From positions 248,001-312,000 of the forward strand of contig CACXOM010000002.1 of NCBI GenBank assembly GCA_902769255.1: a stretch of DNA of 64,000 nucleotides, read 5' to 3'. The position numbers and the translations under genes are program-made. Shown here in pieces: positions 7,245 to 40,756 of this stretch. Every line of letters begins with the position of its first letter. The first letter of the stretch is position 1. Under the pieces are notes generated by a model that was not told where the DNA came from, did no database searches, and worked only from the letters and a program-made list of their open reading frames with translations. This stretch comes from Oscillospiraceae bacterium. Its GTDB lineage: Bacteria > Bacillota > Clostridia > Oscillospirales > Acutalibacteraceae.

Positions 7245-7916
7245 TTATAAATTTAAAACCGAATAAGAGTTTAATTCAAAATCATTAAACATCTTTGTAT
7301 ATTTAGCTTTATATTTTGCCATTTTTTCATAAGGATTTCTCTCACACCCGTGAATATCAGAACCAATAAAATGTGCATTGCCGTTTTTGTATAATGATAT
7401 TACATTTCTGCGAGAAGAAAAATATAAAAATGCTTCAATATTAATTTGAAAAAGAATATCTTTTTTAAATAACTTTTGAGTATAATAACTTGAATATCTA
7501 TTAATATGAGCAATTATAGGGTTAATGCCTAAAGCAATCAATTCGTCAATCGCTTCATAATGCCACGAAGACCAATTCAAATTCATAGGCATTTCGAGTA
7601 GCAAGAAATTTGTATCACCTATACACAATTTTTTTAAATCGTTTTTAAATAAATCAGTTTGCAAATTAACTTCAGCAGCTTTTATAATTTCAATATCATT
7701 ATTATAAGATGATAAAGCGTTTGTAAGATTTCTAAACCCCTCTTCCCTGCGGTCTAAAAACTCACTTAAACTTTCTTTGTTATCATAATAATGAGGTGTT
7801 GCAACAATTTTCTTTATACCGGCTCTTTTTGCCATTTTGATTTGTTTTAGCGAAGTTTCAATGCTGTCGCTGCCGTGGTCAACTTTTGGCAAAATATGAG
7901 CATGAAAATCTACCAT
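7245..7916 (-). CDS. PHP-type protein tyrosine phosphatase (CpsB/YwqE family)
   Basis: 223 residues. The N-terminal metal motif MVDFHAHILPKVDHG, then TPHYY, and the C-terminal GSDIHG mark a PHP-domain phosphohydrolase of the CpsB/CapC/YwqE type. These Mn-dependent enzymes dephosphorylate the tyrosine tail of the cognate bacterial tyrosine kinase. It is the last gene of a three-gene operon, 2 bp behind the kinase gene. No polysaccharide synthesis genes are near. Confidence 0.93.
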   Translation of the reverse strand: MVDFHAHILPKVDHGSDSIETSLKQIKMAKRAGIKKIVATPHYYDNKESLSEFLDRREEGFRNLTNALSSYNNDIEIIKAAEVNLQTDLFKNDLKKLCIGDTNFLLLEMPMNLNWSSWHYEAIDELIALGINPIIAHINRYSSYYTQKLFKKDILFQINIEAFLYFSSRRNVISLYKNGNAHFIGSDIHGCERNPYEKMAKYKAKYTKMFNDFELNSYSVLNL

Positions 7917-7918
7917 AA

Positions 7919-8581
7919 TTACTCGTTCTCGTTTTCTTCCTTATCTAAATTTTTAGCAACTCTATTATAATAAGTACCTGCTTGTTCAACGGTTTGCTTA
8001 ATGCTTTCAATCTCTTCGCTACGTGTATGCTCACAGTTGACAATATTAATAACGCCCATAGTTTTTGAAGCAACAATAGCAGCATCAGTAACCAAGCCAA
8101 GCGGTGGTGCATCAATAAAAATATAATCAAACAAAGGAGTGCAATCATTTAAAAGCTTCTCCATATTTTTGGAAATTAACAATTCGGTAGGGTTCGGCGG
8201 AATTGTGCCTGCCGGCAACACATAAAGATTAGAAACTTCAGTCTTATAAATGCTCGGGGTAATATCATCAATACTGCCCAAATAGTCAGAAAGACCCGGT
8301 TTAGACTGAATTTTCATATATCTGTGAATAGCCGGTTTTCTAAGGTCGGCATCAATTACAAGAATTTTAGCGCCTGTTTGAGCAAATGTAATAGCCAAAT
8401 TTAAACAAGTAGTAGTTTTACCGTCACGAGGTGCAAAACTTGTAAAAACAATAGAATTTTTTGTTTCATTTGAATCAAGCATAAACATTAAATTTGTTCT
8501 TGTTGCTTTGAAAGCTTCAATAACATTGAAAGGTGTTTTATCATTTATTATTGAATTTTTCATAAATCTGGAATTTTTCAT
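7919..8581 (-). CDS. BY-type tyrosine kinase (CpsD/CapB family)
   Basis: 220 residues of a MinD-like P-loop kinase. Walker A is APRDGKTTT (canonical family members have PGEGKS/T), Walker A' is ILVIDADLRKP, and Walker B is YIFIDAPP. The cytoplasmic kinase needs the membrane activator encoded directly upstream. The C-terminal tail is short and acidic (KEENENE) and holds only one YY pair instead of the usual tyrosine cluster. The gene sits 7 bp behind the activator and 2 bp before the phosphatase. Confidence 0.93.
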   Translation of the reverse strand: MKNSRFMKNSIINDKTPFNVIEAFKATRTNLMFMLDSNETKNSIVFTSFAPRDGKTTTCLNLAITFAQTGAKILVIDADLRKPAIHRYMKIQSKPGLSDYLGSIDDITPSIYKTEVSNLYVLPAGTIPPNPTELLISKNMEKLLNDCTPLFDYIFIDAPPLGLVTDAAIVASKTMGVINIVNCEHTRSEEIESIKQTVEQAGTYYNRVAKNLDKEENENE

Positions 8582-8588
8582 TATTATT

Positions 8589-9266
8589 TTACAACTCCTC
8601 TATATTTGGAATGATACCGATAATAGGAATATCAGGGAATGTTTCAGCGAAATCTTGCTCGGAATCAATCTTTGTATCAAGAATATCAATAACAACAACA
8701 GCTATTGAAGAAATAACAAGACCGGCGAGCAAACCTAAAATAATAAATGTTTTATTGTTAGGATAAGACTGCGAAGACGGTAAACTCGGTTCATCAACAG
8801 TTTCAACGCCCGATTTTTCAATAATCTTCTCAATTTGAACTTTTGAATTTTTTACAAAAGAAGCATTGATTCTTTGAGCATCAGTCGGGTCTTCACATTC
8901 AATATCTATTTGAACAATTACAGTATTCGTAACAACTGAAGAAGAAATCATATTTGTAAGTTCGCTCTCTGAATATTTTCTGTCAATATCGAGATAAACC
9001 ATATGAGTAACAGAACGGCTTTTAATAATCGCAACAACGTTGTTTACAAGAGATTCAGCAGCTGAAATATCAGAAGAAGAAATCTTATTCTCATAACCGC
9101 TAACCTGTGAGTTGTTAATATATAAAGTACTTGTCGAAGTGTAAAGCGGAGTTAAGCTGAAAAAGCTGTAACAAAAAGCCAAACCTGCACAAACAATGGC
9201 AGATAAAATCAAAATCCACAATTTTCTTATTAACAAATGGACAAGTTCAAAAATGTTTATTTCCAA
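8589..9266 (-). CDS. Wzz/CpsC-family membrane activator of the tyrosine kinase
   Basis: 225 residues with a membrane segment near the N-terminus (about 15-34), an extracellular Wzz-like loop and a second membrane segment (about 173-195), ending in a cytosolic tail that would touch the kinase. In capsule and exopolysaccharide systems such proteins set chain length and activate CpsD. The start is a TTG at 9264-9266, 7 nt behind GGAGG. It is the first gene of the operon and follows a good promoter. Confidence 0.9.
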   Translation of the reverse strand: MEINIFELVHLLIRKLWILILSAIVCAGLAFCYSFFSLTPLYTSTSTLYINNSQVSGYENKISSSDISAAESLVNNVVAIIKSRSVTHMVYLDIDRKYSESELTNMISSSVVTNTVIVQIDIECEDPTDAQRINASFVKNSKVQIEKIIEKSGVETVDEPSLPSSQSYPNNKTFIILGLLAGLVISSIAVVVIDILDTKIDSEQDFAETFPDIPIIGIIPNIEEL

Positions 9267-9298
9267 AATAAATCCTCCTACATAAATAATACAAAATA

Positions 9299-9327
9299 AT
9301 TATACAATAATACGCTTAAAAAGTCAA
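9299..9327 (-). promoter_or_regulatory. Predicted promoter of the tyrosine kinase operon
   Basis: On the minus strand TTGACT (9327-9322), a 17-bp spacer and TATAAT (9304-9299) lie between the ychF stop and the CpsC start. Confidence 0.8.
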
Positions 9328-9336
9328 CATTTTAAG

Positions 9337-10431
9337 TTAAACGTTAAACAAAAAGTGTACTACATCTCCGTCTTTCATAACATATTCTTTACCCTCGCTG
9401 CGAAGCAGTCCCTTTTCTCTTACAGCGTTCATTGTTCCGTATTTAACCAAGTCTTCAAAAGAAACAACCTCTGCTCTTATAAAGCCTTTTTCAAAGTCGG
9501 TGTGAATAACGCCGGCAGCTTGCGGCGCTTTGGTACCGTTTTTAATTGTCCAAGCACGTACTTCTGGCTTGCCTGCTGTTAAATATGAAATCAAACCAAG
9601 CAACGAGTAACATTCTTTTATCAATCTGTCAAGTCCCGAAGAGGTTAAATTAAGCTCTGATAAAAACATTTCCTTTTCGTCGCTCTCCATACCCGAAAGC
9701 TGTGCTTCTAATTCGGCACAAATCGGTAAAACGCCAGCCTTTTCATCTTTAGCAATCGCTTTTACCTCATTATAACGCTCATTGCTGTCAATGCCGGAAA
9801 TAAAATCATCTTCGCTCATATTGCAAGCGTAAATAACAGGTTTTGAAGAAAGAAGAGCTATTGTTTTTAATATTTCCTGTTCATCTTCGTCCATTTCAAT
9901 TGAACGAGCGGGTTTTCCATCTTCTAAATGAGCAATAAGTCTTGTTAAAAAGTCAACTTCTTTTTGTAAAGACTTGTCCCCTTTTAACATTTTTAACGCT
10001 TTTTCTTTTCTTCTTTCAACCATTTCAATATCAGAAAAAATCAATTCAAGGTTAATAGTTTCAATATCTCTTTTAGGGTCGATTGAGCCGTCAACGTGAA
10101 CAATATCGCTGTTTTCAAAGCATCTTACCACATGAACAACCGCATCGGTTTCTCTTATATGCGATAAGAATTTATTTCCGAGGCCCTCGCCTTTTGAAGC
10201 GCCTCTAACAAGACCTGCAATATCAACAAATTCTATAACCGCCGGTGTTACTTTATCAGGCTCAAACATCTGCGTCAACTTATCAAGTCGCTCATCGGGA
10301 ACGCAAACCATTCCAACGTTCGGCTCAATTGTGCAAAACGGATAGTTTGCAGCAGATGCGCCTGCATTAGTAATTGCGTTAAATAGTGTTGATTTTCCGA
10401 CATTCGGAAGTCCTACAATACCAAGTTTCAT
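9337..10431 (-). CDS. ychF: Redox-regulated ATPase YchF (Obg-like)
   Basis: 364 residues, full length. The P-loop is GLPNVGKST (7-15), switch II lies in DIAGLVRGA, the altered G4 is NMSED in place of NKxD (which gives YchF/OLA1 its ATP preference), and a C-terminal TGS domain ends in [10 protein letters not shown]. YchF binds ribosomes and modulates stress responses. It is the last gene of the run nucleotidyltransferase-CPBP-tadA-ychF, which is closely spaced on the minus strand. Confidence 0.97.
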
Positions 10432-10449
10432 AAATATTTTTCCTTCTCT

Positions 10450-10893
10450 TTATCTTAATTTTTTAAAAAATTCCTTTAAAATTTTACTACATTCTTCCTC
10501 CATTACGCCACTAACCACTTTGGGTCTGTGGCAAAAATCAAGGTCAAACATAGATATAACCGAACTAACAGCGCCCATTTGATTATCTTTAGCACCGTAA
10601 ATTACTTTATTAATTCGTGCATTAATGATTGCGCCTGCACACATAGGGCAAGGCTCAAGTGTTACATATAAATCACAATTATCAAGTCGCCAACTGTTTA
10701 AATTTTTACATGCATCGTTTATCGCTTCAATTTCAGCGTGAGAAATTACGCTTTTCTTGTTCTCACGCATATTTCTGCCGACACCGACAGTTTTACCGTC
10801 TAAAACGACAACAGCACCGACAGGCACTTCCATTTCATCAAAAGACTTTTTAGCAAGGCGCAAAGCCTCTTTCATATAAAAATCATAATCCAT
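10450..10893 (-). CDS. tadA: tRNA-specific adenosine deaminase TadA
   Basis: 147 residues, typical TadA length. It converts A34 of tRNA-Arg(ACG) to inosine. Zinc ligands and catalytic residues are visible in HAE (H52, E54) and PCPMC (C82, C85), with the basic C-terminal helix LKEFFKKL. It starts 4 bp after the CPBP protease stop. Confidence 0.95.
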   Translation of the reverse strand: MDYDFYMKEALRLAKKSFDEMEVPVGAVVVLDGKTVGVGRNMRENKKSVISHAEIEAINDACKNLNSWRLDNCDLYVTLEPCPMCAGAIINARINKVIYGAKDNQMGAVSSVISMFDLDFCHRPKVVSGVMEEECSKILKEFFKKLR

Positions 10894-10897
10894 TTTT

Positions 10898-11848
10898 TCA
10901 CGCCCTGTTTAAAAGTGCAACATAACACATTCCAGCTATAAAAATTACAATTGCCGGATTGAATAGCATTCTAAAAAACTTTGAAGTTTTCGACAAATAA
11001 GATACTTGTAGATTTAGCATTTTAAAAGCATTCGTTTTTTTCAAAAAAACAAAGCTGAATATGCCTATAATTAAAACTGAATACATAATTATTGCAGCAG
11101 TTAATACATAAGTTTTGCTAAGTTCATTAAGCAAAAGTGCTAAAGAGTTGTTTAAAAAATGAGCAATTATTCCTACCCAAATTGATTCTGTTACAACAAA
11201 AGCAATTCCAAGTGCAACACCCACAATAAAAGCAAACGGAATTTGAACAAAATTTTGATGAAAAAACGCAAAAAGCAATGCAGAAATCAAAATAGCTGGC
11301 ATGTCGCCATATTTTCGCAAACTGCCTAAAATCATTCCTCTAAAAGCAAATTCTTCAATAAGTGCAGGAATTAAGGCAGAATTTATAATAACAAAAAGCC
11401 ACTCAAAAGCGCTAAAATAATTAGAACTGCCAATTTCAGGCTGAACAGGAGTAAATTGAAAAACATTTTCTAAAATTTCATCAAAAACACCTGTTGCATA
11501 ATTTGCAATCATTGCCATTCCCAAAACAAAGAAAATTGTTAAAAACCAAAATTTATTCGGCTTGTTAAATCTTGCAGTAACATAAATCGGCTCTTTTGTT
11601 GCACACTTTATTAACAACAAAGGAAAAACAAATGAAATACTCATTATAAAAGAATTTATAAAATAACCGTAATAATTATCATTATAAATCGATAAAATTT
11701 TGTCTTTGTCAAATCCTAACGCATAGAATATTGACGATAATGAAATACTCAAAAGCAGCATAACAATATATGACAAAATCAAAGCAACGCCGACAAACAG
11801 ACTTCTTTTAAAAATATCTTGTTTTTCTCGTTTTAAAACCAAATTCAT
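10898..11848 (-). CDS. CPBP-family intramembrane metalloprotease
   Basis: 316 residues with about eight hydrophobic segments. The CPBP (CAAX protease/Rce1-like) motifs are complete: EEFAFR (E165, E166, R170), FAFFHQN (H197) and HFLNN (H230, N234). Substrates are unknown. Relatives in Firmicutes are linked to bacteriocin self-immunity and peptide processing, but there is no bacteriocin gene next to it. The start ATG lies 1 nt behind the stop of the nucleotidyltransferase gene. Confidence 0.92.
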   Translation of the reverse strand: MNLVLKREKQDIFKRSLFVGVALILSYIVMLLLSISLSSIFYALGFDKDKILSIYNDNYYGYFINSFIMSISFVFPLLLIKCATKEPIYVTARFNKPNKFWFLTIFFVLGMAMIANYATGVFDEILENVFQFTPVQPEIGSSNYFSAFEWLFVIINSALIPALIEEFAFRGMILGSLRKYGDMPAILISALLFAFFHQNFVQIPFAFIVGVALGIAFVVTESIWVGIIAHFLNNSLALLLNELSKTYVLTAAIIMYSVLIIGIFSFVFLKKTNAFKMLNLQVSYLSKTSKFFRMLFNPAIVIFIAGMCYVALLNRA

Positions 11849-11849
11849 A

Positions 11850-13049
11850 TTAATTTTCCTTAAAAAGCTCTAATTTTTTATATAAATCAACTCGTTCAAC
11901 ACTCGACTTTGTAAGTTTTATAGGGTTAATTTTCGGGCGTTTGCCACAAATTACTCTAAAAACATACCTAATTCCAATGTAAAACGGCGCAATTACCAAA
12001 AGAAAACTATGCTTTTCGCAAGGTTTCCAAGCAATTTTGCAAAAATTTGATAGACTCTTAAAAGCAGAGCCTTCTTGAGCGGTGTTCATAGTAAAAGCAG
12101 AACTGCCATATCTTGATTTTAAAGAATTCTTACCAAAATTACCGCTTGTTACAACATCTTTTAAAAGCAAATCGCAAAACTCGTCATCAATATCAGAAAA
12201 ATACCCGTAATCAGCTAAATCAAAGTATTTATTAGAAATTTTTGAAAGTACTTTTGCAGTTTTTAACAAACCCGCTTTTGAAAAAGTATCTAAAACTTTA
12301 TCAAGATTATTCTTATAATCATCGCTTGAAAAGTACGCGGAAAAGTCACATAAATGGCGAAGTCCTATACCGCCACGCTGAATGTGGTTTACAAAATGAA
12401 GCACAAGCAGTAAAGCGTGTGTAACTTCGTCAGGCCCATAAAAACAATACCCGTCAAAATTATATTTTTTTACGTTATTTATAGCATTTTTTAAAAAATC
12501 TTTAATAAAATTACCTGCATTGTTTTCAGGTAAATCCCAAAAATCGTGGTGCATTTCAAGAGTTACGCCGTCTAACTCATAACACCAATGCTTTTCGTCA
12601 TCGGTTGATATAAGTTTAATTCCGTTTTCAATCAAAGCATTATTAGCCGTTTCAAAATCAGAAAAATCAACATAAAAATCAATATCGCCTGTTTCACGAA
12701 ATTCTGCCTTTTTATAATAATAAGCGGAACAAAAGCCTTTAAAAACAAAATAATTTATATTATTCTTTTCAAGTAAAGCGGTAAGTTTTTTTTGAACGCT
12801 TAAAACATTTTCTCTAATAGTTAGTTTTCTGCTTGCCAAATAAAGCCATTTCATATAAACTTCTTCGTCTATTAATGACTTAAATTCAGGAATTTTATCA
12901 AAAACAAACATATTAACAGCGTTTCTATCAGCAATTTTCAAAAGATTATAAAAATCAACACCGGAAAAATCAACCTTTTTTTCATCACCGTTTAAACTGT
13001 TTTTAAGCAATTGAAAAATAATTTTTTCTTCTTTGCAAAACTCAACCAT
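11850..13049 (-). CDS. Nucleotidyltransferase-fold protein (NTP_transf_5 family)
   Basis: About 399 residues. FKGFCSAYYY followed by RETGDIDFYVD shows the Pol-beta superfamily pattern G...RxxxDID with its two metal-binding aspartates. The family (PF14907 type) has no settled function. Members occur in some lasso peptide clusters and next to PqqD and HPr-kinase-like genes, and such genes lie 7 kb away here. The start is the ATG at 13047-13049 with GGTGA upstream. A longer in-frame ATG at 13082 falls inside the promoter spacer and is excluded. Confidence 0.82.
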   Translation of the reverse strand: MVEFCKEEKIIFQLLKNSLNGDEKKVDFSGVDFYNLLKIADRNAVNMFVFDKIPEFKSLIDEEVYMKWLYLASRKLTIRENVLSVQKKLTALLEKNNINYFVFKGFCSAYYYKKAEFRETGDIDFYVDFSDFETANNALIENGIKLISTDDEKHWCYELDGVTLEMHHDFWDLPENNAGNFIKDFLKNAINNVKKYNFDGYCFYGPDEVTHALLLVLHFVNHIQRGGIGLRHLCDFSAYFSSDDYKNNLDKVLDTFSKAGLLKTAKVLSKISNKYFDLADYGYFSDIDDEFCDLLLKDVVTSGNFGKNSLKSRYGSSAFTMNTAQEGSAFKSLSNFCKIAWKPCEKHSFLLVIAPFYIGIRYVFRVICGKRPKINPIKLTKSSVERVDLYKKLELFKEN

Positions 13050-13070
13050 TTTTTCACCGCCTATTTTAAT

Positions 13071-13099
13071 ATAATAACACATTTATTGCTATTTTACAA
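13071..13099 (-). promoter_or_regulatory. Predicted promoter of the nucleotidyltransferase-CPBP-tadA-ychF unit
   Basis: On the minus strand TTGTAA (13099-13094), a 17-bp spacer and TATTAT (13076-13071). It is divergent from sigK. Its position fixes the downstream start codon at 13049. Confidence 0.75.
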
Positions 13100-17357: not shown

Positions 17358-17390
17358 AAAAAGAACTTCTCAAAAGAGAAGTTCTTTTTT
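17357..17390. terminator. Bidirectional terminator between the flavoprotein gene and tRNA-Leu
   Basis: GAACTTCTC (17363-17371) pairs with GAGAAGTTC (17376-17384) around AAAA, flanked by six A on one side and six T on the other. It serves the convergent flavoprotein gene and tRNA-Leu. Confidence 0.88.
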
Positions 17391-17476
17391 GGTGCCGGAA
17401 GCGGGGGTCGAACCCGCACGGTATCGCTACCACTGGATTTTGAGTCCAGCACGTCTGCCAATTCCATCATTCCGGC
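17390..17476 (-). tRNA. tRNA-Leu (CAA anticodon)
   Basis: Reading the minus strand, the acceptor arms GCCGGAA/TTCCGGC close a class II tRNA with a long variable arm. The anticodon stem CTGGA/TCCAG encloses the loop CTCAAAA, giving anticodon CAA (codon UUG). The T arm is GCGGGTTCGACCCCCGC, and the CCA end is encoded at 17392-17390. It has its own promoter at 17509-17537. Confidence 0.96.
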
Positions 17477-17552: not shown

Positions 17553-19214
17553 TTATTCTTTTATTTCCCATTTTTTATTACAAACTTTTAGAGCTTGTTT
17601 TCTGTGTGTAACAATTATACAGGTTTTTGTTTTTAATTGCATAAGATTTTCAAGCACTTTCGCCTCTGTTACAGCATCTAACGCACTTGTAGCCTCGTCT
17701 AAAAGTACAATTGGCGCATCGCTTAAAAGTGCTCTTGCAATCGCAATTCGCTGAACTTGACCTTCCGAAAGACCCAAGCCTTTTTCGCCAATTAAAGTAT
17801 CAATGCCGTCAGGCAATTTATCAATAAATTCATTAGCACAAGAAAGTCGCAAAACCTCTTTCACCTGCTCATCGGTAACGTCATCATTCACGAAAGTAAC
17901 ATTATCTTTAATTGAGCCTGAAAAAATCAAATTACCTTGCGGTACAAACGAAAACAGTTTTCGAGTAGCACAAGAGCATTTATAGGTTTTGTCATCACAA
18001 ATAATATCAATTGAACCGCCTTGCGGTGTATAAACGCCAAGCATTATTTTAAACAAGGTGCTTTTACCTATACCAGAATGTCCAACAATTGCAGCAAAAT
18101 CGCCTTTGTTTATCTCAAAATTGACATTTTCAAACACATGATTGTCTTTTTTATAAGAAAATGTAAGATTGTTAATTTTGATTGATTTCATACGGTCATA
18201 GACAGATTTTATATCAAAATCAGGCATTTCGTTTACTTCATCATCAATATCTTCAATTTCCATAATTCGCTCGGCAGAGGCCATTGCATTATAATATTGC
18301 GGAATAATGCCAGAAATCGAAGAAAAAGGTTGCTGAACTTGTCCTATAAGTTGCATTATAGAAGTAAATGTACCGTAGGTAAATGATTTAACTTTAATTA
18401 ACAGCTTTGTACTGCACCAAAGAAAAGCAAAAATATAACCTAATGCCATTCCGCTATGATAACCTGCACCGGTAAACACATTAAATTTAGCTTTTTTCAA
18501 TTTTGCTTTAAATAATTTTCGTTGCAATTTATCAGATTTTTCAGCCATATTTCCCTCATTAGAGAATACTTTTACAGCCAAAAGGTTTGATAAAGACTCT
18601 TGCCAGAAAGAACGAACCTTATCATCTTCAGCCTGAACATTTTTATGAAGCCTTTTCATATGTTTGCGTAAAAGTTTGGTGCCGAAGAATACAATCAGTC
18701 CGCCGACACCGAAAACAAGTGCAAACCAAGGCTCATAAGTAACTACAACCAAAAATGCAAAAGTTAATTTAATAATAAGCGCAAAGAAATTTGGAAAAAC
18801 GCTTGTTACGCAACTTACTATTAGAGAAACATCAGAAGTAAGCCTGTTAAGCAAAGTTCCGCTGTGATAGGCGCTTATTTCATCATATTGCTTGCGAGTT
18901 ATTTTTTCAAAAAAGTTTGCTTTAATATTCATTTCAATAGTTGCTTTGCAACGCTCTGTAACATAATTTGAAACCGCATTAAAAACTATATTAAAAGCAA
19001 AGTTTGCAATAAAAAGCAAAGCAAAAATAAGAAACATTTTTTTGTTACCGTCAATCGCATTATCAATAATATATTTAGAGATTATTGCGCCGACAGTACT
19101 GCAACAAGCAAGCAATGAATTTAAAATAACAATAAAAATAATAACAGGAAGTTGTTTTTTTATTGATTTTAAAATCCATTTTAAAGGCGTTCCGGTTTTT
19201 TTAACGCTTTTCAC
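17553..19214 (-). CDS. ABC exporter, fused membrane and ATPase domains
   Basis: 553 residues: six membrane segments (about 18-310) and a C-terminal nucleotide-binding domain with Walker A GHSGIGKST, signature LSEGQ and Walker B IVLLDEATSAL. There is no N-terminal C39 peptidase domain, so leader removal would need another protease, such as the S26 peptidase encoded just upstream. The start is a GTG at 19212-19214 behind GGAGG, overlapping the peptidase gene by 14 bp. It is the last gene of the dockerin-lipoprotein-kinase-PqqD-peptidase operon. The substrate is unknown; the context suggests a modified peptide. Confidence 0.9.
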   Translation of the reverse strand: MKSVKKTGTPLKWILKSIKKQLPVIIFIVILNSLLACCSTVGAIISKYIIDNAIDGNKKMFLIFALLFIANFAFNIVFNAVSNYVTERCKATIEMNIKANFFEKITRKQYDEISAYHSGTLLNRLTSDVSLIVSCVTSVFPNFFALIIKLTFAFLVVVTYEPWFALVFGVGGLIVFFGTKLLRKHMKRLHKNVQAEDDKVRSFWQESLSNLLAVKVFSNEGNMAEKSDKLQRKLFKAKLKKAKFNVFTGAGYHSGMALGYIFAFLWCSTKLLIKVKSFTYGTFTSIMQLIGQVQQPFSSISGIIPQYYNAMASAERIMEIEDIDDEVNEMPDFDIKSVYDRMKSIKINNLTFSYKKDNHVFENVNFEINKGDFAAIVGHSGIGKSTLFKIMLGVYTPQGGSIDIICDDKTYKCSCATRKLFSFVPQGNLIFSGSIKDNVTFVNDDVTDEQVKEVLRLSCANEFIDKLPDGIDTLIGEKGLGLSEGQVQRIAIARALLSDAPIVLLDEATSALDAVTEAKVLENLMQLKTKTCIIVTHRKQALKVCNKKWEIKE

Positions 19215-19677
19215 CTTTTATTTTCCTCCAAAGTTTTTTAGGGTCAGTAAATAATGTTTTTATTCTGCGACAAAAAGTTTTAAAATTTCTGCGCAAAAAC
19301 AACTCTAAATAATACAATTTTCTGTTACCTTTATCGCCCTCATAATAAACATTATCTAAATAAACGCCTTTGACTTTTGCAATAACCATATCAACAGTTA
19401 TGCCTGTTTCAATTACATTTTGGTTATCACCGCACAAAAATAAATCATTACCGTTTATTTTAATAATTCTATGTAAAACATATTTGCCGTTTTTTCGGCG
19501 ATACAAAACAATATCCCTTTTTGATAAAAGACCCGGTTTAACCAAAACAACCGAGTCTTTTCCTTGTCTTATAAGTGGTAACATACTTGTACCGCGAGGA
19601 TAAAGTCTAAACTCGCCGTCATTAGAAATGACATCTTCGATTAATAATACCATTTCATTCATTGGAAGACTAATCAA
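19201..19677 (-). CDS. Soluble S24/S26-family (signal-peptidase-like) protein
   Basis: About 158 residues. RGTSMLPLI carries the predicted nucleophilic serine and KYVLHRII a histidine where bacterial signal peptidase I has lysine, followed by FLCGDNQ. There is no N-terminal membrane anchor, unlike SPase I. GGAGG lies 9 nt before a TTG at 19677 and no such site precedes the ATG at 19662, so the TTG is the likelier start. The gene overlaps pqqD-like and ABC genes at its two ends. It may process a peptide carried by the RRE protein; this is inferred from context only. Confidence 0.82.
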   Translation of the reverse strand: MISLPMNEMVLLIEDVISNDGEFRLYPRGTSMLPLIRQGKDSVVLVKPGLLSKRDIVLYRRKNGKYVLHRIIKINGNDLFLCGDNQNVIETGITVDMVIAKVKGVYLDNVYYEGDKGNRKLYYLELFLRRNFKTFCRRIKTLFTDPKKLWRKIKGEKR

Positions 19678-19936
19678 GTAAATTTTCCTCCTTGAGTTTA
19701 GATACAAATTTATCAACTGCGTTTGAAGCGGTTTCTTCATCTAAATCATCATAATATTCGAGCATTTTATGTACAACTTCTTCTTTAGTCGTATCCTGTT
19801 GCATACAGTCAAACAAAAACTTTGCAGAAGCATTCAAGGTCAATGAGCCGTTATAAATCTTGCTCAATTTCCCTGTTGCGAGTGCAAGATATGAACCTGC
19901 AACCTCTCTTATGATAAAACCGCTTTTAATTCTCAT
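19670..19936 (-). CDS. PqqD-family peptide-recognition protein
   Basis: 88 residues. The pattern VAGSYLALATGKLSKIYNGSLTLNASA followed by an alpha-helical half rich in acidic residues (TTKEEVVHKMLEYYDDLDEETASNAVDKFV, split here only for reading) is that of PqqD-like RiPP recognition elements, which bind leader peptides and present them to modifying enzymes. It overlaps the kinase gene by 11 bp and the peptidase gene by 8 bp, so the three proteins are probably made in fixed ratio. No radical-SAM, asparagine synthetase-like or transglutaminase-like partner is next to it. Confidence 0.88.
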   Translation of the reverse strand: MRIKSGFIIREVAGSYLALATGKLSKIYNGSLTLNASAKFLFDCMQQDTTKEEVVHKMLEYYDDLDEETASNAVDKFVSKLKEENLLD

Positions 19937-20648
19937 TATTTATACCATCTTTCATTATATTATAACTCAATTCAGCTGCTGAAATATCCATATTACACTT
20001 CAAATTCCAAACATCAACCTGTTTTAATGTAACATCTAATAATTCAAGCAATTTTGCAACTGTTTCTGGCCTGTCCGGAATAATCAATTGATTAATAATC
20101 TTTTGAACAGCAAGTTGCATTTTGAATGGTTCGATTATGTTTTTATCGCCTCTTTCAATAAAGCAAATTGCTTTAAGTGGCGCATAATCGTTAATGTTAT
20201 ACCCCTCTTTACCGCACCAAGGAGTGCCGTAAATATAAGGTTTTCCTTCAATAATTCTTATAATCGGCTTGTCACCGTTAATAACTGAAACTTTTTCGCC
20301 TAAAAGCTTTTTCCAAAGCTTGATATGTGTTGTTTTTCCGGTGCCACTGCTTGCAGTAAATGCATAAGCAAAACCGTCAATTTTAACAACCGCAGAATGA
20401 AGCAAGAAAGCATTATAATCAGGAATTATTTTACATATTTTACGATAAATACAAGTACTTTCAATATAACCGTTAGAAAAGTTTCCGTTAGCTACCTTTT
20501 TCTCATCATCAATTTCTTTTTTTGAAACAGCGACAGAAAAAGACGCATCAAAACTATTATCTACAATATAATCTTTGCAAACACGTTTAACAAAATCATA
20601 TTGATTGTCAATCGAAATAACTAACTCAGCAATTTTAATTTTAAACAT
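19926..20648 (-). CDS. HPr-kinase/PEPCK-like P-loop kinase
   Basis: 240 residues. AFTASSGTGKTTHIKLW is the Walker A and following helix typical of HPrK-like kinases, with NGDKPIIRI and YGTPWCGKEGYN behind it. The HPrK regulatory N-terminal domain is absent. Related stand-alone kinases occur in lasso peptide clusters, where they phosphorylate a C-terminal serine of the peptide (paeninodin type). Here it follows the lipoprotein gene by 5 bp and overlaps the PqqD gene. Its substrate cannot be seen from the sequence. Confidence 0.85.
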   Translation of the reverse strand: MFKIKIAELVISIDNQYDFVKRVCKDYIVDNSFDASFSVAVSKKEIDDEKKVANGNFSNGYIESTCIYRKICKIIPDYNAFLLHSAVVKIDGFAYAFTASSGTGKTTHIKLWKKLLGEKVSVINGDKPIIRIIEGKPYIYGTPWCGKEGYNINDYAPLKAICFIERGDKNIIEPFKMQLAVQKIINQLIIPDRPETVAKLLELLDVTLKQVDVWNLKCNMDISAAELSYNIMKDGINNEN

Positions 20649-20653
20649 ACAAA

Positions 20654-21046
20654 TTAAAATGGATCTTCAACAGCCGGATCGTTAGTATCGCCACCGATTA
20701 TTTTATAGGTAAAAGTTGTTTTCTTTTCTTTTTTGTCTTTTTTATCTTTAGCTTTTTCTTTGCTGTCTTTATTATCTTTTTTGTCGTTTTTTGAATTTTT
20801 ATCAGCCTTGTTATCAGCTTTTTCTACTTGAGTCTGTTTGTTACCATCTTTATCGGTAACTTGTTCGCCTTTTTTATTTGTAACGTAAACTACAACTGTT
20901 TGCGCATCATCTTCAACAGTTGTTGTTTGAGCGTTAGTAACTTTTTTAACAGTATCTTTATTATCATCGCCGCCGCAAGCAGAAAAACTTAACAAAATTC
21001 CGCAAAGAATTGCAACAGAAACCAAATAAACTAAAACATTTTTCAT
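20654..21046 (-). CDS. Highly charged Lys/Asp-rich lipoprotein
   Basis: 130 residues. A basic start and hydrophobic segment (about 3-22) lead to SFSAC, a plausible lipobox with the lipidated cysteine at about 24, then GGDD. The middle (about 65-108) is almost only Lys, Asp, Asn, Glu and Ser and must be extended and disordered. The C-terminus TFTYKIIGGDTNDPAVEDPF is conserved-looking and ordered by comparison. I do not recognise a family. It is the second gene of the operon, 24 bp behind the dockerin gene, and might be the anchor or the substrate of the system. Confidence 0.8.
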   Translation of the reverse strand: MKNVLVYLVSVAILCGILLSFSACGGDDNKDTVKKVTNAQTTTVEDDAQTVVVYVTNKKGEQVTDKDGNKQTQVEKADNKADKNSKNDKKDNKDSKEKAKDKKDKKEKKTTFTYKIIGGDTNDPAVEDPF

Positions 21047-21070
21047 TATAGCAAAAATCCTTTCAAATTA

Positions 21071-21373
21071 TTAATAGTTTGGAGAATACATTCCCATATC
21101 GGTTGCATTATGACCGATTAACAATAAATCTTGCAAATCAACCACACTATCACCGTTGTAATCAAGTTTAGTCGTATCAAATACACTAATTCGAGTAGTA
21201 TCATAACCTGCTAAATATTTTTCAAGCAAATGATAATCGGCAGAAGTAAGTTTGTTATCACAATTAATATCGCCTACAACCGAAGTACTTGCAGCAGAAA
21301 CACTGGAAATACTTGCAATTAAAACAGATATAATCATAAACACGCTAACAAATAAAATTTTAAATCTATTCAT
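21071..21373 (-). CDS. Small secreted protein with a single type I dockerin domain
   Basis: 100 residues. A signal peptide (about 1-28, ending SSVSAA) is followed directly by two dockerin calcium-binding repeats: GDINCDNKLTSADYHLLEKYL and LDYNGDSVVDLQDLLLIG. Nothing else is present: no enzyme or binding module. Dockerins bind cohesin modules of scaffoldins or surface proteins. AAGGAG lies before a GTG/ATG pair; the ATG at 21373 is used here. It is the first gene of the operon that ends with the ABC exporter. No cohesin gene is visible in the window. Confidence 0.87.
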   Translation of the reverse strand: MNRFKILFVSVFMIISVLIASISSVSAASTSVVGDINCDNKLTSADYHLLEKYLAGYDTTRISVFDTTKLDYNGDSVVDLQDLLLIGHNATDMGMYSPNY

Positions 21374-21404
21374 CACTATTAACTCCTTAATTATTCTATA
21401 TATA

Positions 21405-21433
21405 ATTTTAACATAGAATTAAATTAATTGCAA
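21405..21433 (-). promoter_or_regulatory. Predicted promoter of the dockerin-exporter operon
   Basis: On the minus strand TTGCAA (21433-21428), a 17-bp spacer and TAAAAT (21410-21405). It lies just behind the acpP terminator, so the six-gene operon has its own start. Confidence 0.7.
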
Positions 21434-37405: not shown

Positions 37406-40400
37406 TTAAGATACCGTAATCGGTACCGTTAATTCATTTTCAACTCCGTCTTCCCAAGTAATAGTCATTTCATAATGACCTTTTGAGATATCATCAAAAC
37501 TGATTTCTTCCAAAGATACGTCGTCAAGATTATATACACTCTCGCCGTTTTTGTTTTTAACATCAACCGAAACATTTCCAGTAAAATCTCCAAGTGAAAC
37601 AGAAGAAGTTACTTTGTAATGAGGTGTGTAGCCTATAGCAAAAGTAGCAAATCTATTAGAATAAATATAAATACATTTGTTTTCCTTATCAATTCTAAAT
37701 GTACCATTCTCTTTGCTTGTGATTTCACTAAATTTTTCAATATCTGCACCTTCGCAGTAATAAACAGCAAGGTCTCTTCTGCTTATCTTTTCGTAAGGAA
37801 CTACAATTTCCAAAACATTTTCAGATGAATTAAGCACAGTTGTATTTGAGTCAACCTTTTTTTCAAGTTGAGTATCAAAGAACATAAACGAACTGTTTGT
37901 AACAAGTTCATTAAATGGACTTGAATTTTTTGCAGTTTCCTGCGTTTTTGCTTCAACTGTCATTAAAACAGAAAGGCTTTTTTCTGCTTCAAGGTTATCA
38001 GATTTTCTAATAGCCAATGCTTCTTTATCAAGACCGCCTACAACAGCCGAGAAGTCGTTATCATTTGAATTGACTGTAAGCAATGACTCTGTTTTGCCGT
38101 CAGGCATTATAATATCAAATATTTTATTATCTTCATAAACCTCAATTATTTCAGTTTTTTTGGTCGACTGATAAGTAGCAACAATATTATAAACGCCTGT
38201 TGGAACAGTAAACTCATACTTACCGTCGCTTTGGGTAATTTCATAATCAATTTTTTCGTTACCCTTCATTAATGTAATATTTGCCTTGCTAATCGGGGTG
38301 CTTTCGTCACTTTGATATAAAACACCTTTAAAGGTTACCCATTTTTCATCAGCCAAAACTACTTTAACATAAGAAGGAGAAATGTCTGTATGGTTCTTAT
38401 CAGCCACTACTCTATACCAAACATAATAACTGCCGATATTTTTTGCAATAGGGATTTCGGTATCAAAACTAATTTCGTTTGGCACATTATCAGGATTGTC
38501 TCCTAAAGCATATTGAAGCGTTCCGCCATCTACTGTTCCTTGAGAGACTAAAGGTTGTCCAGAGTCATTATATATCGGTCTTGTTGATTCGGGCTTATTT
38601 GTTACCACAGCGCTTATTTTGCTGATTTGAACTTTTGCCGAACCTGTTACAATTACATAATTCTTTTTAGTAACACTATAGTAAACCGTATATTCGCCAG
38701 CATCTGTATAAGTAGGATTGTCTTCGAGTGTATAACTTCCCTCTTGTGTGCCAAATTTGATTTCAGCACCTTCCGGAATACCAACACTAACACTATGCTC
38801 AATAGAGTCGTAACTTACAGAGCAATCCTCAACACTAACGCCTTCCATTTGTGCCTTTGAAATTTTAAATTCTGCATTAGCAGTTTGTCCATCAATTATA
38901 ATACTTGCTGTGTAATCACCTGCATCGGTATTACCCGAATAAGATATTTCCGGAATTTGCAAGCCGTTTTCTTTTGCCCAGCCTTCACTATATGTTAACT
39001 CGGCTGTAACCGGCTGTCCGTCATACACTTTATCATCAGCGCTTATTTTAACTGTTTGGTCGGTTAATTCGCAAACACCATCACCTGTGCATTTTGCGGT
39101 GATAGTATCTTCGCTTGCTAAATAACTCCATGTATGTGTGAGGAGGACCAATATATGCTTCGTTAGTTGAAATACGAACTTCATATGCATTATTATCGCT
39201 TATAAAATAGTCAGCAGGGTTCTTACCAGACATATATGTATTCCAGCCACTTTTGAATATTGCGGTTTCATTCCTCTGCCTTATACCAATATTCGTGCCA
39301 TCTGTCAACGCACCCTCAACTATAACTATGCTATCTTGGTCGTTAGTTCGGAACAGATAAAGATTGTTTTGTTCATTTTCGTATTTATTGTCATAAATAA
39401 TAGGATTTCCGCTTACCTTAACATTAGCATTACCCGCGAGGAATACTGCATATTGACCTCTGTTCTTGATTTCGTTTTCGGTGAATGTGCCACCTTCAAG
39501 AATCAGAGTACCGCTACCTTCCGCGTAAATACCCGAACCGCCGAAACCTTCAGTAGCTGAATTATTTTTAATAACCGTTCCATCTTTTATGGTAATTGTA
39601 CCATTTTTTAGATATAGACCGCCACCATAGTGACCTGTGTTTCCACTAATTTCGCATTTATTAAGAACTATGGAACTGTTTCCTTCAACGTGAATTCCAC
39701 CGCCATGGAAACCGCTACCGCCAGTTACCTTACCAGGTCCGAAGACCGAAAGATTTGCCCCGTCACCAACTGTGATTGCCAAACCTGAATTATCAGCACC
39801 GGTAGCACCTGTTCTTTTGATTTGGAATCCGTTAAGACAAATATTTGTTGTACCTGAAGGTACATTCCAAGTACTTGAGATAGTTACATCTGTTTCAAGA
39901 CGATAGTTGCCCGATTCTGTTGGCAGACTATCTGTTGCAGTCCACTTCTTAAAAGCCATATCGTCGTGAATGTGGTCATCTGCTCCAATAACACCCGAAA
40001 GTCCAAAAACATTGAAAACGCAAGAAGAATTATTGCTTGTATCCCAAGTAAACTGAACAGCCTTAACCTTCTTGTTTGTATCAATTCCGCTTACTACAGT
40101 TTCGTACATACCCGAATAACTGCCTCTGTCAAGTGAACCGCGGGGGGCTACACCGATTCGCATTCTGTACAACGAACCGTAAACTTCGCTGGAATGGTGC
40201 GAATACCAGTCACAAGCAGTAACAGTATTTTGCGCCGATTCTGTGTTGTCAGTATAAATTACTTTTACCTTTGCTTTGCTTGCTCCGCCACCACCTGTAA
40301 CAAGAATAGCAATTTTTGAGAAAATATTAGGAGTTTCAAGTGTCAAAGTTCCATTTTGGTTCCTCGATGTAATTTGAAGAGCATTGGTTTCTGTTGATTT

Positions 40401-40756
40401 TCTAAAGGTAAACTTCTTTCCCGTGTTGGTAGTAATTGTACTGCCTGATGGAAAAGCGCCTTGCGACTGAACAGACGATGAAAAATACGAGTGGTCTCCA
40501 CCATCAACACAGCCAACACTCAACACAGCCAACACTCAACACAGCCAACACTCAACACAGCCAACACTCAACACAGCCAACACTTGATAATTCCTGTATG
40601 TTAGTGCTGTCAGCAACAATATCAGCATTAAATCCGGATACCACAAGCGGAAAATACTGGTCTGCTGCAGCAGTAACTAAATATGTAGGTATAATGTTTA
40701 AAAGCAACGCAAACGACATTAAAATCGCCAAAATAATTCTAAACTTTGTTTTTTCA
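37406..40756 (-). pseudogene. Very large beta-helix/MBG-domain surface protein, frame broken in three places
   Basis: The parts, in order, are: a signal peptide (from the ATG at 40756, FRIILAILMSFALLLNI); a five-copy 16-bp repeat that brings a stop; a carbohydrate-binding-like N-terminal domain; a right-handed beta-helix with GGGIHVEG and GGGLYLKNGTITIKDG turns; MBG-type repeats (DDKVYDGQPVTAELTY, AGDYTASI); a carboxypeptidase-regulatory-like domain (ISKANITLMKG...SDGKYEFTVPTG); and a C-terminal unit. No LPXTG or SLH anchor is seen. Frame changes lie at the A6 run 40748-40753, at the repeat 40505-40584 and at about 39131-39140 (CACACATACATGG). The longest open parts are 39081-40535 and 37406-39190. 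A single 16-bp copy, one more A and one more CA would give about 1,090 residues. Confidence 0.75.
40505..40584. repeat. Five perfect copies of a 16-bp tandem repeat inside the surface protein gene
   Basis: The unit on the coding (minus) strand is AGTGTTGGCTGTGTTG, five times without a mismatch. Because 16 is not a multiple of three, each copy shifts the frame, and one frame contains TGA. With a single copy the signal-peptide part reads straight into the domain that follows (...SSVGCVDGGDHSY). With two or more copies translation stops inside the repeat. Confidence 0.97.

Follow-up and report, generated by a model that had tools for sequence, protein, structure and literature searches.

Background

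The described system that comes closest to the locus studied here is that of the linear polyphosphorylated peptides (LPPs), encoded by lppA-K-B-S-D-N of Paenibacillus alginolyticus (Popov et al. 2026, PMC13381572). According to the main text of that paper, its parts are a precursor with a YxxP motif, the HprK-like kinase LppK, the recognition element (RRE) LppB, the SipW-like peptidase LppS, the MsbA-like exporter LppD and the nucleotidyltransferase LppN. Ser3 of the LPP core takes several phosphates, the leader is cut after T-1, and a Thr variant was not phosphorylated by LppK; the final product is not identified in that text, which leaves its role open. LPPs are stated there to be restricted to Bacillota and were mapped on Bacilli genomes, and in the main text no word starts with clostridi, lipoprotein, secreted or dockerin. 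Here we describe a six-gene operon in a 64,000-nt stretch of DNA, referred to below as the window, from a gut-type Oscillospiraceae bacterium of the class Clostridia (assembly GCA_902769255.1, contig CACXOM010000002.1, positions 248,001 to 312,000). The genome that carries it, G000, is 1.79 Mb and 99.7% complete. The operon is probably a pathway of LPP type for ribosomally synthesized and post-translationally modified peptides (RiPPs), with its precursors spread over the genome, and the C-terminal tail of its lipoprotein recurs on the candidate precursors and on a secreted cellulase.

Results

The operon and its protein families

All six genes that the first-pass annotation had assigned to the operon were found on the minus strand, in the order dockerin protein, lipoprotein, HPrK-like kinase, PqqD, S26 peptidase and ABC exporter. 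The overlaps it had given were obtained again on recomputation (kinase/PqqD 11 nt, PqqD/peptidase 8 nt, peptidase/exporter 14 nt). The features, with a candidate for the fifth LPP enzyme, are as follows.

21071 to 21376, minus strand: small secreted dockerin protein, with a signal peptide (recognized by eye), a single type I dockerin domain and the conserved C-terminus DMGMYSPNY
20654 to 21046, minus strand: lipoprotein, with a lipobox, a Lys/Asp-rich linker and the conserved tail FTYKII[GD]G[DN][TS]NDPAV[EV]DPF
20654 to 20683, minus strand: codons of the lipoprotein tail NDPAVEDPF plus stop, a tail also present on trans-encoded peptides and a GH5 cellulase
19926 to 20648, minus strand: HPrK-like kinase (LppK type), with the motifs SSGTGKTTH (P-loop), NGDKP and GTPWCGKEG
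19670 to 19936, minus strand: PqqD-type RRE (LppB type), from its Pfam PqqD match
19201 to 19677, minus strand: soluble SipW-like S26 peptidase (LppS type), from an NCBIfam match and invariant residues
17553 to 19214, minus strand: MsbA-like ABC exporter (LppD type), from Pfam ABC_membrane and ABC_tran and from NCBIfam
11850 to 13082, minus strand: NTP_transf_5 nucleotidyltransferase (LppN candidate; PF14907, E 3.7e-36)

The dockerin gene starts with GTG at 21376 or ATG at 21373, and the C-terminus of its product is identical in the genomes G002 and G003. For the peptidase, the most likely start is the TTG at 19677, which lies behind AAGGAGG; the longest open reading frame (ORF) begins at 19740. 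The nucleotidyltransferase gene lies 4.5 kb downstream of the operon, beyond four genes on the opposite strand, and a second NTP_transf_5 copy is found on contig C4, among genes that look by eye like those for extracellular polysaccharide (EPS).

Pfam recognized Dockerin_1 in the dockerin protein (E 2.1e-7, 31.4 bits, cut-off 22.9), PqqD in the putative RRE (E 1.1e-12, over cut-off) and both ABC domains in the exporter, again over cut-off; among the exporter's 193 NCBIfam matches MsbA_lipidA was the best (E 7.7e-75), below its own cut-off. The peptidase matched Peptidase_S24 in Pfam (E 0.001) and sigpep_I_arch, an archaeal-type signal peptidase I, in NCBIfam (E 4.3e-7), in both cases under the cut-off. 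Ser31, His69 and Asp84 are invariant in 20 aligned sequences of its family; the spacing from His to Asp is 15 here, whereas it is 25 in LppS as numbered in the LPP paper (S29, H68, D93; PMC13381572). The kinase had no match in Pfam and a weak one to ScmC in NCBIfam (E 0.007). Its name, HPrK-like, rests on the motifs, whose residues are mostly invariant across 19 aligned sequences, and a profile of the family matched PDB entries weakly and around the P-loop (TsaE E 0.007, PEP carboxykinase 0.08). Single kinase, peptidase and PqqD sequences retrieved nothing useful from the PDB, so that profiles were needed.

The operon PqqD is the sole PqqD match in G000. When a profile built from 21 such sequences was aligned with LppB (9x8z), the E value was 6.4e-5, and the window protein has counterparts of the LppB residues N33, Y60, D70 and F74, in a numbering of ours that agrees with the LPP paper for eleven LppB residues mentioned there. 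D70 is described there as bonding the leader Tyr in the crystal (PMC13381572).

Distribution and gene order among relatives

The kinase was present in 26 of 60 genomes (G000 and relatives) and, with a cut-off of E 1e-20, in 117 of 394 genomes of the order. We fetched 113 stretches from the genomes with G handles and called a kinase gene in 106 of them and none in 7; gene calls at these loci came from simple ORF heuristics of our own, with contig ends included. Within four genes of the kinase, PqqD was found at 61 of the 106 loci, an S26 peptidase at 56, an ABC gene at 25 and NTP_transf_5 at 9. The kinase with both PqqD and S26 in that range occurred at 51 loci. Among the loci examined, the full six-gene order was seen only in two close relatives, G002 and G003. 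The kinase gene of G019 comes after genes for a dockerin protein and a lipoprotein, and that of G346 after genes for a lipoprotein and a protein that looks dockerin-like by eye. NTP_transf_5 was present in 24 of the 26 kinase-bearing genomes against 4 of the 34 without the kinase. In an earlier screen of rumen genomes, frequencies of ~58% for HPr kinase, ~46% for PqqD and ~30% for an uncharacterised nucleotidyltransferase are reported (PMC7533575).

Small dockerin proteins with a C-terminus like D.(D/E)GW..QVVKP adjoin an NTP_transf_5 gene in G019 (L354:2292-2717) and lie four genes upstream of the kinase in G023 (L060:3732-4166). Relatives also carry a second type of cluster (L075-L082), with a longer HPrK-like kinase (259-297 residues) and a radical SAM enzyme; most of them have PqqD too. 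Precursors in these clusters are 75-93 residues long, many with Cys, and have a YxKP-like start (e.g. L080:6423-6668, L082:6735-6983); some of the clusters carry genes that look EPS-like by eye.

Candidate precursors encoded in trans

At the loci of relatives, ORFs of 32-54 residues with a leader-like start lie upstream of the kinase. A first model, made from 14 such peptides, found in G000 a 40-residue peptide on contig C5 (E 1e-4) and a 45-residue peptide on C16 (E 0.03). A second model, restricted to the leader part of 28 peptides, matched G000 six times at E 0.001 and eight times at E 0.1. This search was partly circular, because the model includes the C5 and C16 leaders of this genome, and to this extent it speaks less strongly for precursors in trans. 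A ninth, degenerate peptide was added by a search with the tail pattern described below. All nine leader-type peptides lie outside the operon, at distant sites. None of the eight model matches is in the window, where a stricter motif scan gave two unrelated ORFs. The first-pass annotation had noted that any short precursor was missing; that is true of the window, but the precursors of this operon are probably encoded in trans across the genome, not absent. The lipoprotein and the dockerin protein were also considered as leader-bearing precursors and were rejected, no leader motif being seen in either.

Over all loci the leader model at E < 0.02 selected 79 distinct leader peptides. The leader position holds Tyr or Phe in 78 of them, with a Pro three residues further on in 55. 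A Ser five residues past a conserved Asp (D+5) is present in 71 of the 76 peptides that could be aligned, and by its spacing from the proline it matches Ser3 of the LPP core within one residue. This D+5 Ser is the presumed site of phosphorylation.

Kinase (117 genomes) and leader peptides (92 genomes) coincide in 77 of the 394 genomes (Fisher P 2e-36), an overlap that is somewhat favoured by the building of the leader models mostly from peptides of kinase-bearing genomes. Counted by genus (168 genera), 45 have both, 4 the leader only, 15 the kinase only and 104 neither (P 4e-23); the sampled genomes are related, and the count by genus corrects for kinship only in part.

Upstream of 66 of the 79 leader peptides, at a distance of up to 400 nt, lies a same-strand ORF of at least 120 residues, although some of these ORFs are spurious, e.g. 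those of 122 and 153 residues. Six of the nine G000 peptides stand directly behind genes for proteins with a common C-terminal domain of ~150 residues. A signal peptide can be seen by eye in four of these six proteins (C7, C12, C14, C16); that on C24 is cut by the contig end, and the N-terminus of that on C15 was not seen. The peptides on C3, C5 and C2 have no neighbour with the domain. Over all loci it scores in 21 of the 66 upstream ORFs. In the large proteins of G000 that share it (for example L329:1142-3445, L315:123-1871 and L318:345-1427) it has the features GIRF..., ...ARGYV.L....T.YYA and RSLK..., and in the proteins compared with Pfam and NCBIfam it matched no family of either. When ten proteins near leader peptides were compared with Pfam, one contained GH5, one contained repeat and Ig-like domains, and eight gave nothing. 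No family was found for seven of the small peptides in NCBIfam, for three in Pfam or for one further peptide.

A C-terminal tail shared by peptides, lipoprotein and cellulase

All nine G000 peptides have one tail: DPxxxD[KP]F forms the C-terminus of eight, and in the C5 peptide, which finishes with DPYVDDPFDD, it is followed by DD. The operon lipoprotein ends in NDPAVEDPF. A secreted GH5 cellulase of G000, which has a signal peptide and the shared C-terminal domain, ends in DPSGYDKF, and in DPSGDDKF in G003. Sharing of the tail by the seven peptides that begin with MKFEE would by itself prove little, because these are paralogues.

The genomes were searched with the DNA pattern D-P-x3-D-[KNTHQP]-F-stop, alongside a reversed control. 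It matched 10 times in G000, 10 times in G003 and twice in G002 (87% complete), where the control gave 0; in ten further genomes there were 0 matches and 2 for the control. All 22 matches, which include a degenerate copy (G000), an 11-codon remnant (G003) and a copy at a contig edge (G002), fall in three classes: leader peptide, lipoprotein and GH5. Among the three genomes the lipoprotein tail is identical at 16-19 of 21 positions without gaps, whereas the linker has 25-32 identical residues of 56-77 aligned, plus 12-33 gap columns. In a literature search, neither trans-encoded precursors behind secreted-protein genes nor a tail shared with a surface lipoprotein was found described.

Tail sharing in other lineages

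Ten lineages have a linker-type lipoprotein, or a protein resembling those with surface-layer homology (SLH) domains, beside the kinase together with known leader peptides. In each, the tail of that protein was compared with the lineage's own peptides and with foreign ones. Own peptides beat all of the 61-77 foreign ones in four of the ten lineages, with shuffled-tail P <=0.002. The first (g1, with the peptides of G000, G002 and G003 pooled) had 0 of 61 foreign peptides as good, and the window tail with G000 peptides alone had 0 of 51. The corresponding counts were 0 of 73 for G019 (tails DNVIDFSELLG and DNPLDFSALMG), 0 of 77 for G309 (tail ELPII) and 0 of 77 for G208 (tails EDYDPNAPLILPEDVL and EDYNPSKPYETPEDTL). 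G288 was borderline, with 2 of 78 foreign peptides as good and a shuffled-tail P of 0.02. The tail sequence differs in other genera, and three of the four supporting lineages use tails other than that of the window. In an earlier test on 8 lineages the own genome came out on top in 5; we prefer the broader test, with ten lineages and a larger peptide set.

Discussion

Weighing the LPP-type reading

On the gene content and the comparisons above, we have good confidence that the operon represents an LPP-type RiPP pathway with its precursors dispersed over the genome. By homology to the LPP system, PqqD would bind the N-terminal leader, the kinase would place phosphate or polyphosphate on the conserved Ser that ends the ...D[IV]I[TA]xS motif, and the S26 peptidase would cut two or three residues ahead of that Ser. 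The ABC protein would then export the core peptide, and the nucleotidyltransferase may modify the phosphate further, perhaps joining the core to something. The first-pass annotation had proposed a system different from lasso peptide clusters. It is not a lasso cluster, but neither is it a wholly separate system, because four of its enzymes match the core of the published LPP family.

Several observations weigh against this reading. In G000 only the C5 peptide has YLEP; the other eight are without the proline of YxxP, seven of them having FEEI, FEDI or FRDI and the degenerate one no clear leader motif. Fifteen leader-positive genomes had no kinase at the cut-off used, and 40 kinase-bearing genomes had no leader match. 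At 55 of the 106 kinase loci, PqqD or S26 was not found within four genes, which contig ends explain in some cases. The genome G001, of the same genus as G000, has an operon (L053, G001:C12) with kinase, PqqD and exporter, but without dockerin protein, lipoprotein or a recognised S26 peptidase, and its three leader peptides end in a different common tail, GDDIF or KDDIF. No significant tail match was obtained in five of the ten lineages (G346, G027, G054, G110 and G052). Finally, the PqqD profile favours RREs of lasso clusters in the PDB (TbiB1 E 4e-11, TfuB1 2e-9, PbaB1 6e-8) over LppB (6e-5), and with these higher scores a place of the RRE in the LPP clade would be tentative.

This last result, and the fact that kinase, PqqD and exporter are also parts of paeninodin clusters, would be expected if the operon were a degenerate lasso cluster that has lost its cyclase and B2 protease. 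However, the gene set matches that of LPPs, with a SipW-like peptidase gene accompanying the kinase at the 56 loci counted above. The lasso B2 protease family PF13471 has no match anywhere in G000, and the single Asn synthase of this genome (cyclases were sought in G000 only) is on contig C17, not on the contig of the operon. It follows that the operon is not a lasso cluster, which bears out the first-pass annotation, where cyclase and protease had been reported missing from it. A complete lasso cluster elsewhere in G000, which could have supplied them, is likewise contradicted by the lack of a B2 protease. A lasso remnant was judged unlikely on the same two findings, and we regard this origin as very improbable.

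The likeness of the tails in G000 could also be due to chance, or to recent duplication without function. The paralogy of the seven MKFEE peptides and the five lineages without tail sharing are in keeping with such an origin. Against it, the lipoprotein, the GH5 cellulase and the C5 peptide differ from the MKFEE peptides outside the tail, and the 22 pattern matches all fall in the three classes, with the reversed control at 0 in the three genomes and 2 in the other ten. Moreover, the theme repeats in four lineages, three of them with other tails. We give hardly any weight to chance or duplication alone.

What the tail may do

Under the LPP-type reading, the lipoprotein is more likely a partner that displays the tail than a substrate, because it has the C-terminal tail of the peptides without their leader. 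The first-pass annotation had suggested peptide-tailoring parts acting on a cell-surface protein; the parts do adjoin cell-surface proteins, but it is the role of substrate that seems doubtful. If the lipoprotein or the dockerin protein were nevertheless the substrate, its tail would be modified by the kinase or the peptidase before or after secretion, and the trans-encoded peptides would be a side branch. Both genes head the operon in three genomes, and the tail of the lipoprotein is conserved where its linker is not, as this would have it. The lipoprotein lacks a YxxP leader, however, and the residue before its tail is Thr in G000 and G002 and Ser only in G003, while LppK was inactive on a Thr variant in the experiments given in the main LPP text (PMC13381572). 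Related loci without such a lipoprotein still have leader peptides. On balance, a substrate role appears unlikely.

Another view of the tail is that the ABC protein uses it as a C-terminal signal for export or sorting. In type I systems, ABC exporters recognize signals at the C-terminus, and the leader peptides of G000 share the tail. Yet the tail-bearing lipoprotein and GH5 cellulase have, by sequence, a lipobox or Sec signal of their own. The tail should therefore function at the cell surface or beyond it, and not just as a signal for ABC export. In addition, of the 13 kinase loci where a leader peptide is present, 8 lack an ABC gene in a range of five genes, although the exporter may lie elsewhere. 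An export signal is, in our estimate, decidedly unlikely.

Our best guess, from sequence, is that the tail is a species-specific surface tag; that it works in docking or recognition at the surface is put forward tentatively. The lipoprotein would display at the membrane, on its flexible linker, the tag that is also present on the exported phosphopeptides, whether these are soluble or bound to glycan, and the shared C-terminal domain of the large proteins is a candidate reader of it. A more elaborate and rather unlikely scheme would be a peptide-tag docking system of Clostridia, in which each species or genus has its own tag and LPP-type phosphopeptides, made from precursors whose genes accompany those of secreted surface proteins, are joined to a surface glycan through their phosphate by the nucleotidyltransferase. 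The wall-spanning lipoprotein and some enzymes would bear the tag as well, and the un-named domain or another receptor would read it. If this were true, it would amount to a way of holding enzymes on the cell comparable to cohesin and dockerin, built from RiPP chemistry.

The shared tail is a clue to what LPP-type peptides do, and the tag may link that question to the cell surface, to polysaccharide and to fibre-degrading enzymes. The function of LPPs becomes testable in this group, because the kinase is present in 117 of 394 genomes, several of the likely precursors in trans stand behind secreted-protein genes, and the peptides end as the lipoprotein and the cellulase do. Cluster mining that looks for precursors next to the enzymes would presumably miss such peptides.

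Genomic context

Two further features of the window bear on the setting of the operon.

7245 to 9266, minus strand: capsule or EPS genes for CpsB, a polysaccharide tyrosine autokinase and a Wzz-type chain length protein
21405 to 21433, minus strand: promoter-like site ahead of the dockerin gene (9/12 match, TG before the -10)

The three capsule genes and the NTP_transf_5 gene share one strand, and genes between them and it (7245-13082) resemble, by eye, YchF, a tRNA-type deaminase and a CAAX protease. The promoter that the first-pass annotation placed ahead of the operon exists as a site, but such sites are not above chance level (25 found against 22.4 +/- 4.8 in shuffles), and for this reason the site alone is no evidence. 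A tRNA-Leu lies past the operon end at 17390-17476. Elsewhere in the window, two overlapping long minus-strand frames at 37406-40535 perhaps belong to a single repeat-rich secreted protein.

Comparison with known systems

The operon resembles a cellulosome locus in that its first gene encodes a small protein bearing a single type I dockerin domain, and small dockerin proteins also occur near LPP-type genes in G019 and G023; the tail motif, in contrast, is not a dockerin. With SynChlorMet clusters it has in common a kinase that is weakly like ScmC and a PqqD weakly like ScmD (E 0.14), but there is no radical SAM match among the six operon proteins. Paeninodin-type lasso clusters likewise combine an HPrK-like kinase, PqqD (B1), an ABC exporter and a nucleotidyltransferase; they differ from the window operon in their cyclase and B2 protease, in place of which it has a SipW-like peptidase.

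The likeness to LPP clusters, as far as the main text of PMC13381572 describes them, extends to the discrete RRE, the SipW-like leader peptidase, the MsbA-like exporter and the lack of a cyclase, to a kinase that is HPrK-like by its motifs and a candidate nucleotidyltransferase 4.5 kb away, and further to the leader Y..P motif, which G000 has on the C5 peptide, a conserved Ser soon after the predicted cut and capsule genes not far off. The leader consensus here is Y/FxxP/I..E[IV]..F...D[IV]I[TA]xS, against YxxPxVLxHQxIxFETxxS in LPPs. Other differences from the published clusters are that the candidate precursors of G000 lie outside the cluster, scattered over nine distant sites of which six follow genes for shared-domain proteins, that the window operon is headed by a dockerin protein and a tail-bearing lipoprotein, and that a C-terminal tail is common to the G000 peptides, the lipoprotein and the cellulase. 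The enzyme set thus appears to be of a known kind, that of LPPs, while the precursors in trans and the tail on a surface lipoprotein would be its new aspects.

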